This document shows, one piece after another, positions 3,074-30,973 of a stretch of 64,000 nucleotides of DNA (positions within the stretch are counted from its first letter, which is position 1; the number at the start of each line of letters is the position of its first letter). The stretch covers positions 1 through 64,000 of the IMG/VR virus record IMGVR_UViG_3300018080_000098, one strand, 5' to 3'. Position numbers and translations under genes: made by a program. Source of the DNA: a virus. The notes beneath the pieces were generated by a model. It worked only from the letters and a program-made list of their open reading frames with translations, did no database searches and had not been told where the DNA came from.

Positions 3074-3139
3074 CGCGTTTCTCCGTTTCGCAAATCGTCG
3101 TACTGCCCCGGGATGGCGCAGTAGATATCCACAGTCATC

Positions 3140-5065: not shown

Positions 5066-5105
5066 GGGGATTCTCCTCGCAAATTGTTTCCGTCCGACGC
5101 GATCA

Positions 5106-11287: not shown

Positions 11288-11318
11288 CTTGTTTCTCCGT
11301 TTCGCAAATCACCCACCG

Positions 11319-25923: not shown

Positions 25924-26331
25924 CTAGGTCATCTTGCTCCGCACGATGTGGATTATTTTGTCAGCTCGAGCCTTGAGCTTCCGAATGATCAGACGTTCAT
26001 CTTTCAGGCGCACGACGTTCAGGACGAACGAACTGAAGGCGATATCAAATTTTTCACCCAGCTTCGGTTCCTGTGTAGTGACGCTACCCTGCTGCCACCC
26101 GTTGCCATGAGTACGATGGTTGGGATCGTAAGCGTAGACCTTACAGCCCAATGCACGCAGGTAGTCTGCGTTGCGCCCGGATTTACCTGCGCCCCAGTCG
26201 AGCACGCGCGTACCTTTTTTGAAGAAGCCTTTCTTCGCGAGCCAGCGGATGGCTGGGGATGCTTTGCCACTGATAGACGTGGCACCCTTTTCTACGGCTG
26301 CGCCTTTATAGGCGCGTTTCTTTTTCGACAT
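25924..26331 (-). CDS. Small class I SAM-dependent methyltransferase
   Basis: 135 residues. Motif I is TRVLDWGAGKSGRNADYL, followed by CKVYAYDPN, whose acidic residue would bind the SAM ribose, and FDIAFSSFVLNVV (motif IV/V region). It is shorter than most class I enzymes (200 or more) and lacks an obvious substrate domain, which might be supplied by the next gene. Substrate unknown. Confidence 0.85.
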   Translation of the reverse strand: MSKKKRAYKGAAVEKGATSISGKASPAIRWLAKKGFFKKGTRVLDWGAGKSGRNADYLRALGCKVYAYDPNHRTHGNGWQQGSVTTQEPKLGEKFDIAFSSFVLNVVRLKDERLIIRKLKARADKIIHIVRSKMT

Positions 26332-26400: not shown

Positions 26401-26598
26401 TTAGAGGCCGAAGAAGAGGGAAAGGTGGGAGTCGCTTCGACGTTGGAGCTCCTCTTTCGCAACATGGATAGCCAGGAGCTTTCCGTCGAAGTGGTCTGTC
26501 AGTGGTCGTAGAAGGTTTCCTGCTTCAAGCACCTTGACGATTTCCTCGTCGGTGTACTCGGTGAAAGAATCCCTTAGATGCTTTTCATACGCTGTCAT
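26401..26598 (-). CDS. Small hypothetical protein
   Basis: 65 residues from MTAYEKHLRD, helical. It starts 37 bases after the end of the tRNA-like RNA, behind GAAACGGAGGCAACCA. The RNA upstream could therefore also act as its leader. Confidence 0.65.
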   Translation of the reverse strand: MTAYEKHLRDSFTEYTDEEIVKVLEAGNLLRPLTDHFDGKLLAIHVAKEELQRRSDSHLSLFFGL

Positions 26599-26634
26599 TG
26601 GTTGCCTCCGTTTCATTGGTGTTGGGTTGGTAGT

Positions 26635-26759
26635 GGAGCGCCAGGGATCGAACCTGGATCGGGTACGGAGCTTGCGAAACGGAGATGAAAGGCAAGCAGC
26701 CTAGGCGGGATCAGTTGTCGGACGGAAACCGCTACCCGATAGCCAAATCCTTCGCTCCT
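26635..26759 (-). ncRNA. tRNA/tmRNA-like small RNA with antisense segments to the phage leader boxes
   Basis: Minus strand. Acceptor-like stem GGAGCG (26758-26753) pairs with CGCTCC (26640-26635). A T-arm CCAGG-TTCGATC-CCTGG (26657-26641) is stacked directly on it. Between them an 8-bp stem ATCGGGTA (26740-26733) / TACCCGAT (26665-26658) abuts the T-arm, as helix P2 does in tmRNA. There is no anticodon arm. The 67-nt insert folds into two hairpins: GCGG/CCGC, and GCTTGC/GCAAGC with a 16-nt loop. The loop and stem 26687-26674 are complementary to GCGAAACGGAGATG. The segment 26730-26714 is complementary to GTTGTCGGACGGAAACC. Both match leader boxes of many phage genes. There is no G3:U70 pair for alanine charging, and no encoded CCA end or tag frame was recognised. 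Confidence 0.7.
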
Positions 26760-26766
26760 ATGTTCA

Positions 26767-26794
26767 AGTATAACTACTCGTTATTGGATGTCAA
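26767..26794 (-). promoter_or_regulatory. Promoter of the tRNA-like RNA
   Basis: Minus strand: TTGACA (26794-26789), 16-bp spacer, TATACT (26772-26767). It predicts a start at 26759-26760, exactly at the first base of the acceptor-like stem. It overlaps the 3' end of the gene at 26774. Confidence 0.75.
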
Positions 26795-27124
26795 GTCTTT
26801 CCTCGGATTATTTTTCTTCTTTCTTTTCGTACGCTTAAACGACTTGTCGTAGGGTGCTCGGCAAGGCATCTCTGCGTAGAGCTCTTTGGCTTCTGCGCGG
26901 GAGATTTGGCACGCCAGGATGTGCCCCTTGATGATGCTGATGACTATGAAATATTTATCATCTTTCATGCGTCGTCGCACCCACACCAGGGCTGACGTGC
27001 TAGAGGAGTCCACGGCTATGTCTCGCCACTTGTCTCCTTCGGCGCCCTTCCAGTCTTCTCCTGTAAGGGAGGTCTGGTAGTTCAGGGGAGCCATCTCCAG
27101 CAGCTTATTTTTAGCGTTACTCAT
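26774..27124 (-). CDS. Hypothetical protein with basic tail
   Basis: 116 residues from MSNAKNKLLE. A strand-rich centre (KYFIVISIIKGHILACQISRA) and a lysine-rich C-terminus FKRTKRKKKNNPRK, probably nucleic-acid binding. Its last codons contain the promoter of the downstream RNA. Confidence 0.75.
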   Translation of the reverse strand: MSNAKNKLLEMAPLNYQTSLTGEDWKGAEGDKWRDIAVDSSSTSALVWVRRRMKDDKYFIVISIIKGHILACQISRAEAKELYAEMPCRAPYDKSFKRTKRKKKNNPRKDLTSNNE

Positions 27125-29491: not shown

Positions 29492-30910
29492 TTAAGGTAC
29501 CAGAGCTAGCTTCCGCCGACCCACCGAGAAGTCTTTCGTAGTAAACTCTCCCGGCGCCATCTTCGCCAACTCATTATTCACTCGCTGCCGAAGCTCCGCA
29601 GCAAAGTTTACCAGCTGCTCCAGCTCCGCATCCGTGTACTGGTCGTGAGGATACACGAGCTTCACCAGCCCAGACACCAGCTTCTCCACCGCCACCACGT
29701 CACGCCGTGTCATATTTGACGCCAACGAAACCTGATGTGCCACGTCACGCCGGTCCCGCGTCCGCAACGTTCCCAGCACCTGGCCCAGATAGTCCACCAC
29801 CAGGCCGTATCCCTGGCTAATCGAGGTCGGACTCAGTTTCGGAATTTCCCATCCTGGTAGATACCCGTGCACCCTGTCCAGAAAAGCGGTGTCCTGCAGC
29901 ATCGCGGGCAACGGCTCGAACAGATGTCCGTACCTACCATCCGGTTCCTTCCCCACCACATCCAGGTTCCCTGCTAGAACCATAGAGGAATCTGAAGAGT
30001 ACGTCTTGCCCCCTCGAGCAAACTGCCCCGACTCCATGAAATCCTTCAGCATGGAAATAGTCGAGATGTTGTCGAACCTCGTGCTTGCAATCTCGTCCAG
30101 CTGCACAATCTTGTACGACCCCAGGATGCCCATCGTTCCCGTAGTTACGTTGGCAAACAGGCTCGCCGCCGACACGTTCGCTCCCGAGGCAGTGTACACA
30201 GACGGGGATACGTTACGCAGCAGAAACGTTTTACCAGTCTGCCGAGGACCCAGCTCCATCACGTTCAGGTTGGGCTCCACAGCGGGCGCCAGCCGCACCA
30301 GGTACAGCAGCTTCTCCCGCTCGCTCAGCCTATCCGTCTCGTACCCAACCGACGTCAGCAGAACGTCGATCCACTCCTCCGTCGTAAACTTCCCCCGCCG
30401 CTGGGCAAAGTCTTCCGCGCTGGGGCAGTCTGCTTGGAAGGGCATCACGCCGACCACCACTACTCTGTTCGGGCTCCGCGGGCCAGCGGGTGGAAGATAC
30501 TTCAGGCGGTACGCGCCCCACAGTCCTCCCGTTAGCAGCCGGGGATAGTCATCCACGATCTGCTCCAGGATTTCTGCACGGTTCTCCCCGAGGAAAGTGA
30601 GCGCGCACACGAGCGCACCTGTTTTGAGGTTGACGGTTACCATCGCTTTGTCGATGATGACAACCTCGTGTTCCTTGACGAGCTTGGCCTTAACGACTTC
30701 GCGGGTATCGGCTTCGGGGAAGATCTTGGCCACGTGTTCGCGCATGCGTTTCATATCAGCTTGCGCTTGAGATTCTTTGACGTGGTTGGCGATCAAATAT
30801 TCGACAACGTACTGGGGGATGCGGGGGAGCCCGGCATCGCGTACGAGTGCCTTGCGGACCACTACTCCGTCGAAGATGCGTCTGAGCTTATGTACTGTTT
30901 GAGACTTCAT
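29492..30910 (-). CDS. brxL: BrxL-like AAA+ ATPase (BREX protein homologue)
   Basis: 472 residues; ATG 30910 is chosen behind GCGAAACGGAGGTG. BrxL hallmarks appear in order: ELGPRQTGKTFLLRNVSP (Walker A), VSAASLFANV.., IVQLDEIAS (Walker B), MLKDFMESGQFARGG, then DTAFLDRVHGYLPGWEIPK and YGLVVDYLGQVL. BrxL is the AAA+ DNA-binding factor of type I BREX defence and is usually ~680 residues with a C-terminal Lon-like domain; that domain is absent here. No other BREX gene (BrxA, B, C, Z or PglX) is in the window, so this is a solitary homologue, either recruited for DNA replication or packaging or able to interfere with host BREX (inference). Confidence 0.88.
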   Translation of the reverse strand: MKSQTVHKLRRIFDGVVVRKALVRDAGLPRIPQYVVEYLIANHVKESQAQADMKRMREHVAKIFPEADTREVVKAKLVKEHEVVIIDKAMVTVNLKTGALVCALTFLGENRAEILEQIVDDYPRLLTGGLWGAYRLKYLPPAGPRSPNRVVVVGVMPFQADCPSAEDFAQRRGKFTTEEWIDVLLTSVGYETDRLSEREKLLYLVRLAPAVEPNLNVMELGPRQTGKTFLLRNVSPSVYTASGANVSAASLFANVTTGTMGILGSYKIVQLDEIASTRFDNISTISMLKDFMESGQFARGGKTYSSDSSMVLAGNLDVVGKEPDGRYGHLFEPLPAMLQDTAFLDRVHGYLPGWEIPKLSPTSISQGYGLVVDYLGQVLGTLRTRDRRDVAHQVSLASNMTRRDVVAVEKLVSGLVKLVYPHDQYTDAELEQLVNFAAELRQRVNNELAKMAPGEFTTKDFSVGRRKLALVP

Positions 30911-30944
30911 CCGTTGTAACACCTCCGTTTCGCATCGCACATCA

Positions 30945-30973
30945 AACATAGCAATTCCGCTTGCCGTTGTCAA
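30945..30973 (-). promoter_or_regulatory. Sigma-70-like promoter of the BrxL-like gene
   Basis: Minus strand: TTGACA (30973-30968), 17-bp spacer, TATGTT (30950-30945). Confidence 0.7.

Follow-up and report, generated by a model that had tools for sequence, protein, structure and literature searches.

A tRNA-like RNA locus in a jumbo phage

The window analyzed in this study, a stretch of 64,000 nucleotides, is the beginning (1-64000) of the record of a jumbo phage (hereafter G000), which is 349,793 bases long. On its minus strand lies a candidate tRNA-like antisense RNA of ~124 nt (26635..26758), preceded by the promoter TTGACA-16-TATACT (26767..26794, minus strand; TTGACA at 26794-26789, TATACT at 26772-26767), which matches 11 of the 12 consensus bases with a spacer of 16 and puts +1 at 26759/26758. 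Between the end of the -10 hexamer and the first base of the stem lie 8 nt, and transcription should thus begin at the acceptor-like stem. This 6-bp stem (P1) joins a GGAGCG 5' strand (26753..26758) to a CGCTCC 3' strand (26635..26640), followed by A, with no encoded CCA. The T-arm CCAGG-TTCGATC-CCTGG (26641..26657) has a canonical UUCGANY loop and is abutted by an 8-bp helix, P2, formed by ATCGGGTA (26733..26740) and TACCCGAT (26658..26665); the D-like segment has no stem, and P2 encloses two hairpins, all on the minus strand. Hairpin A (26705..26732) has a loop at 26728-26709 with GTTTCCGTCCGACAAC, complementary to a box of the early leaders termed box A (GTTGTCGGACGGAAAC), and hairpin B (26670..26697; stem GCTTGC/GCAAGC) has a 16-nt loop (26691-26676), CTTTCATCTCCGTTTC, complementary to leader box B (GAAACGGAGA). 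The second complementary segment of the RNA, GGTTTCCGTCCGACAAC, spans 26730-26714. A previous reading made from the sequence only had described this stem, T-arm and P2-like helix without an anticodon arm, as well as the promoter and its start at the first base of the acceptor stem, and we confirmed each of these in the sequence.

The minimum free energy (MFE) of the RNA is -47.2 kcal/mol versus -39.0 for shuffled sequences (z=-2.2). In the predicted fold, loop B is mostly unpaired (mean 0.89), and loop A is partly paired in the free fold (0.58 unpaired). As to its class, ARAGORN called 0 tRNA or tmRNA genes at the locus, also with introns of 0-3000 allowed, and a tRNA, intron-containing ones included, was rejected as the sequence has neither a D-stem nor an anticodon stem. 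The Infernal comparison to tmRNA and tRNA models, proposed with the earlier reading and run here through Rfam, called no known family: over the window, no family reached its gathering score at the RNA locus, and the best tmRNA model, tmRNA_permuted, scored 10.4 bits where 47 are needed (E=5.1). The comparison to tmRNA drawn by the sequence-only reading thus holds for the tRNA-like cap (P1, stemless D-loop, P2 and T-arm) and does not extend to a tag, for which no reading frame was called.

No intrinsic terminator was found after the RNA on the minus strand. Directly downstream lies an ORF of 65 aa (26401..26598, minus strand) with its own box B leader; a 68-aa homologue sharing the C-terminus HLSxFFGx occupies the same place in the related phage G005 described below. 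This small protein has no family match, and its single-sequence structure model is of low confidence (pLDDT 63); it is helical-looking and kept directly 3' of the RNA in both phages, and may be a partner of the RNA. Further along (25924-26331, minus strand), a 135-aa protein of PHROG 14016 gives weak methyltransferase-like matches, and its phage relatives, up to 50% identical, are all KVP40-like Vibrio phages, an odd distribution. A BrxL-like ATPase, a BREX component in a phage, is encoded among the early genes (29492-30973, minus strand; Pfam BrxL_ATPase, 5e-102; 61% identity in G005). Elsewhere in the genome, ARAGORN gave 8-nt (taag) and 6-nt (tc) anticodon loops to two tRNA genes, L013:11604-11680(-) and L013:15640-15718(-) (~215.6 and 219.6 kb), which may be frameshifting or otherwise odd tRNAs.

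Complementarity between the RNA and the early leaders

A whole-phage scan for a sigma-70-like promoter followed by a start codon revealed two leader classes in a minus-strand gene cluster that spans both contig ends (329-349.8 kb and 1-31 kb), and that we call early on account of this clustering and of the sigma-70-like promoters. Among the 42 clustered early genes with box A and/or box B, each box occurs in 22, and both are present in 2/42. Box A, GUCGGACGGAAAC, starts 6-7 nt after the -10 hexamer, i.e., at the predicted 5' end of the message, and lies just upstream of the ribosome binding sites. Box B, (GC)GAAACGGAG, is the only one to overlap the Shine-Dalgarno (SD) sequence, which it contains, and is found also before genes that lack a promoter of their own. 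A common 5' tag, GTCGGACGGAAAC, forms the first 13 transcribed bases at ~22 early promoters (e.g., window 2298, 5134 and 12500, minus strand). The leaders are short (median 32 nt), no more structured than shuffled sequences, and their SD is mostly open.

In 38/42 of these leaders, an uninterrupted run of at least 9 and up to 14 bases is the Watson-Crick complement of a part of the RNA; the remaining 4/42 are box A variants, 3 of which have a C-to-U change (GGAUGG) that keeps the pairing as G-U. The 14-nt match that the sequence-only reading had reported for gene 3073-2498 is correct (box B leader at 3074..3096, minus strand; TTGCGAAACGGAGA), and 14 contiguous complements also occur in the box B leader of gene 11287-10802, which has its own promoter (11288..11310, minus strand). 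The box B leader of the BrxL-like gene (30911..30936, minus strand) has 12 complements, and the box A leader of gene 5065-4712 (5066..5098, minus strand) has 13 contiguous complements to loop A. The complementarity of two loop segments to two leader boxes, as first read from the sequence, is therefore real, with two amendments: box A does not overlap the SD, and the two boxes are rarely on one leader.

This complementarity exceeds what chance would give. When all 10-mers of both strands of the 350-kb genome were ranked for pairing with the early leaders, leaving out the antisense strand of these leaders, the best two nonleader sites were 26731(-) and 26690(-), that is, loops A and B. At ≥10 nt, loop A matched 12/68 early leaders versus 2/493 other genes of G000, and loop B matched 12/68 versus 0/493, these leader counts being approximate since a simple rule served to call the gene starts, and leaders within one phage being nonindependent samples. 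For neither loop did shuffling reach the observed leader count at 10 nt (0/2000 per loop, with the CTCC core of loop B kept fixed); when loop B was cut to its 16 nt, matches of 11 nt were not unusual (112/2000 shuffles). The predicted pairing between loop B and leader is stronger than that between leader and 16S anti-SD (-16.6 versus -9.6 and -22.8 versus -12.8 kcal/mol).

A homologous RNA in a related phage

Relatives of G000 were sought through its DNA polymerase. G001-G003 are fragments that stop short of the RNA region. Another record, G005 (IMGVR_UViG_3300017963_000190, 260 kb), is broadly syntenic with G000, its DNA polymerase being 60% and its BrxL 61% identical, and it carries a homologue of the RNA in the syntenic place (61389-61267, minus strand). 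A covariance model for which the window RNA was the only input sequence picks up this homologue at E=1.1e-7 in a search of 852 kb. As the MAFFT alignment of the two RNAs misplaced P2, they were compared by means of this single-sequence model and constrained folds. The promoter of the G005 RNA, TTGACG-16-TTATCC, again ends 8 nt upstream of GGAGCG, and its acceptor stem is the same as in the window. Its T-arm is CTGGG-TTCGACT-CCCGG and its P2 is ATCGGAA/TTCTGAT, the latter with two two-sided base-pair changes relative to the window RNA; P2 and T-arm together have three such changes, read directly off the two sequences. The G005 RNA adopts the same branched fold, 1 kcal/mol above its MFE, if P2 is imposed, and its free MFE fold is without P2.

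Loop B of the G005 RNA reads ...UUUACCUCCGUUCAU, and the early leaders of that phage read GAACGGAGGUAA. At ≥10 nt, this loop matched 13/105 of its own early leaders versus 1/315 others, and 2/2000 shuffles with a fixed CCTCC core reached the observed count at 10 nt; loop B swapped between the phages matched 0/105 and 0/68 early leaders at the same threshold. Likewise, the leaders of three orthologous genes differ between the phages, the better pairing in each case being with the RNA of the same phage: 12 (G000) and 11 (G005) complements for BrxL versus 9 and 7 after swapping, 10 and 11 versus 7 and 7 for an AAA ATPase, and 10 and 13 versus 7 and 7 for gene 17032. The sequence-only reading had staked its case on the complementary loops being kept in relatives when the leaders change, and loop B of G005 has indeed changed together with its leaders. 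Two independent RNA sequences were found; hence, this evolutionary test amounts to one comparison. A partner of the G005 loop A was sought among the leaders of that phage and none was found, so that the box A half of the system is known only from the window's phage. On the minus strand of G005 at 20-41 kb, we also observed a second leader class, in which a short hairpin at the 5' end (ACGGCGGGAGAAACC...CCCCGC) precedes AACCGGAGGTAA; this class matches loop B up to 9-10 nt only.

Searches for further homologues covered DNA similarity to phage records, which gave no match for the element or for a 24-kb stretch, and scans of IMG/VR and GTDB contigs for sequences fitting the P1/P2/T-arm pattern, in which the homologues were a duplicate contig of the window and G005 only. 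The remaining matches to the pattern fell in coding sequence or in tRNAs unrelated to the element, and one was a tRNA-like RNA, likewise unrelated. The distant huge phages LR745208, LR756511 and Rctr197k gave weak covariance matches, mostly of tRNA length, and were rejected, and a match at L019:1155-1277 was judged to be due to chance. In an unrelated 37-kb phage (IMGVR_UViG_3300028597_000046), an RNA at L064:510-641(-) combines GGAGCG/CGCTCC and a T-arm with a long insert and gave no tRNA call; it is another candidate tRNA-like RNA, and L079:2438-2547 may be a further one.

A model of early message control by a capped antisense RNA

Altogether, these findings point to a tRNA-capped RNA whose loops are antisense to phage messages of an entire class, a reading that we regard as well supported at the sequence level, its loop A half in the window's phage only. 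This was the central claim of the sequence-only reading; it gains from the genome-wide specificity of the complementarity for the early cluster and from the fold and the loop B cochange in G005, and is narrowed by loop A having support in G000 alone. Moreover, a defined set of leaders is matched beyond the SD core and covaries between relatives, the pattern of an antisense small RNA regulon. The locus probably encodes a trans-acting antisense repressor of early messages.

We propose a model in which the RNA would be transcribed from a host-type promoter of its own, with a start exactly at the acceptor-like stem, and would be protected by its tRNA/tmRNA-like cap (acceptor stem, T-arm and P2). 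This cap presumably makes the RNA stable and, by way of host tRNA-processing enzymes, gives it a defined 3' end. Loop B would pair with the GAAACGGAG box carrying the SD of early messages and block 30S binding, a direct block of initiation being the simplest reading of this predicted pairing. Loop A would target a second group of early messages, pairing with the GUCGGACGGAAAC box at their 5' ends, upstream of the ribosome binding site; as box A lies off the SD, the route to repression is less clear here. By analogy with the C4 RNA of phages P1 and P7, box A pairing may serve to anchor the RNA, with loop B in contact with the CGGAG of that leader; alternatively, it may act on decay. As it accumulates, the RNA would turn down some 40 early genes together, presumably at the time of early shut-off.

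Other explanations have to be weighed against this repressor. In a positive role, pairing would shield early messages from 5'-end-dependent decay or deliver them to ribosomes, with the cap binding the translation machinery. Box A would suit such a role, as it corresponds to the predicted first 13 nt of the transcript, where pairing could block this decay and leave the SD uncovered; box B pairing, in turn, covers the SD with more energy than 16S pairing, and the leaders have no strong SD-masking structure to open, which makes a positive regulator unlikely. Since these leaders are no more structured than shuffled sequences and their SD is mostly open, there is little for an activator to unmask, and repression fits better. 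One could also suppose that the RNA acts in cis, as the leader of the 65-aa gene that follows it, with loop B pairing with the SD of that gene and the tRNA-like fold switching or being processed: in both phages, ~15-35 nt separate the RNA from the SD or start of the homologous small ORF that follows, and in the window no terminator was found in between and the small ORF has a box B with 9 complements. Against it, the downstream leader of G005 matches its own RNA by only 7 nt, compared with 11-13 for the trans targets, and loop complementarity reaches dozens of other genes in both phages, so that we hold control in cis to be quite improbable.

The two-loop architecture resembles that of C4, in which loop b' occludes the ribosome binding site and specificity comes from loop a', which binds upstream of it (PMC5320573), and a ParB-like gene lies 1.1 kb from the RNA; an immunity RNA made in a dormant state, silencing the early genes of a resident or superinfecting phage, could accordingly be envisaged. 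We consider it very unlikely: a search for markers of lysogeny found neither an integrase nor a ParA-type ATPase in G000 or G005, and the promoter and position of the RNA resemble those of an early lytic gene. A lytic early shut-off is thus preferred over lysogenic immunity. The probability is lower still that the leader match merely follows from SD content, in a generic anti-SD or ribosome-mimicking RNA: loop B does contain the anti-SD core CUCC/CCUCC, but core-fixed shuffles almost never match as many early leaders at 10 nt (0/2000 and 2/2000), other genes with ordinary SDs are unmatched (0/493 and 1/315), and loop A has no relation to the SD. A degenerate tRNA gene or a functionless inverted leader fragment might be expected in a phage with many tRNA genes, some of them odd, and the T-arm of the RNA is tRNA-like; the conservation of structure, promoter spacing and synteny in a phage whose polymerase is 60% identical, together with a loop that tracks the leaders, leaves this explanation with a similarly slight chance.

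As a trans-acting repressor, the RNA would work most like C4 of P1 and P7, but at the scale of a regulon. Both are phage-encoded antisense RNAs with stem-loops, and the C4 variants of P1 and P7 also change loop and target together. The C4-type trait of two leader-complementary loops, one on the ribosome binding site and one upstream, is present in G000 and reduced to loop B in G005; boxes A and B of G000 are mostly on different messages. Searched with the C4 model (RF01695), the window had no match reaching the gathering score, and 26500-26850 had none at E≤10. C4 is ~77 nt long, cut by RNase P from a longer transcript and serves lysogenic immunity, whereas the RNA of G000 has ~124 nt, its own promoter and ~40 proposed messages; its +1 at the stem may make 5' processing by RNase P unneeded. 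No T-arm or acceptor cap such as that of G000 is described in the C4 literature that we found. The cap itself is akin to the tRNA-like domain of tmRNA in its acceptor-like stem, UUCGANY T-arm, stemless D-loop and P2 stacked under the T-arm, and differs by a 6-bp acceptor, the absence of an encoded CCA and of a G3-U70-type pair, and the lack of a called tag frame.

In scope, the proposed RNA recalls T4 RegA, a protein competing with ribosomes at the initiation regions of ~30 messages (PMC3014915), in that one phage factor acts on the initiation regions of many messages; RegA recognizes loose A+U-rich sites, whereas the RNA of G000 would read two exact leader boxes. According to a recent review of phage small RNAs (PMC12197685), which describes single-target antisense RNAs and host-directed small RNAs, phage antisense RNAs such as lambda OOP and P22 sar pair with phage mRNA and lower its expression. 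These act on one target, in contrast to the scattered targets sharing a dedicated leader tag proposed here. Neither the section of the review covered here nor a keyword literature search yielded a tRNA-capped or leader-tag-wide phage RNA. The phage antisense RNAs in the literature so covered have one or few targets; that of G000 matches a leader tag on dozens of early genes.

More broadly, we lean toward the view that ~40 early messages of a lytic giant phage each bear one of two short leader barcodes, that one tRNA-capped two-loop antisense RNA controls them all, and that barcode and loop coevolve, giving each lineage a private, orthogonal posttranscriptional switch. The loop-versus-box code appears readable and differs between the two phages, which makes the claim testable by loop and leader swaps, and similar regulators may be found by looking in phage genomes for structured RNAs that are complementary to leaders shared by many genes. 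If true, this system would do by means of an RNA what a global translational repressor like T4 RegA does as a protein, and it would account for the exact leader sequences common to so many early genes.
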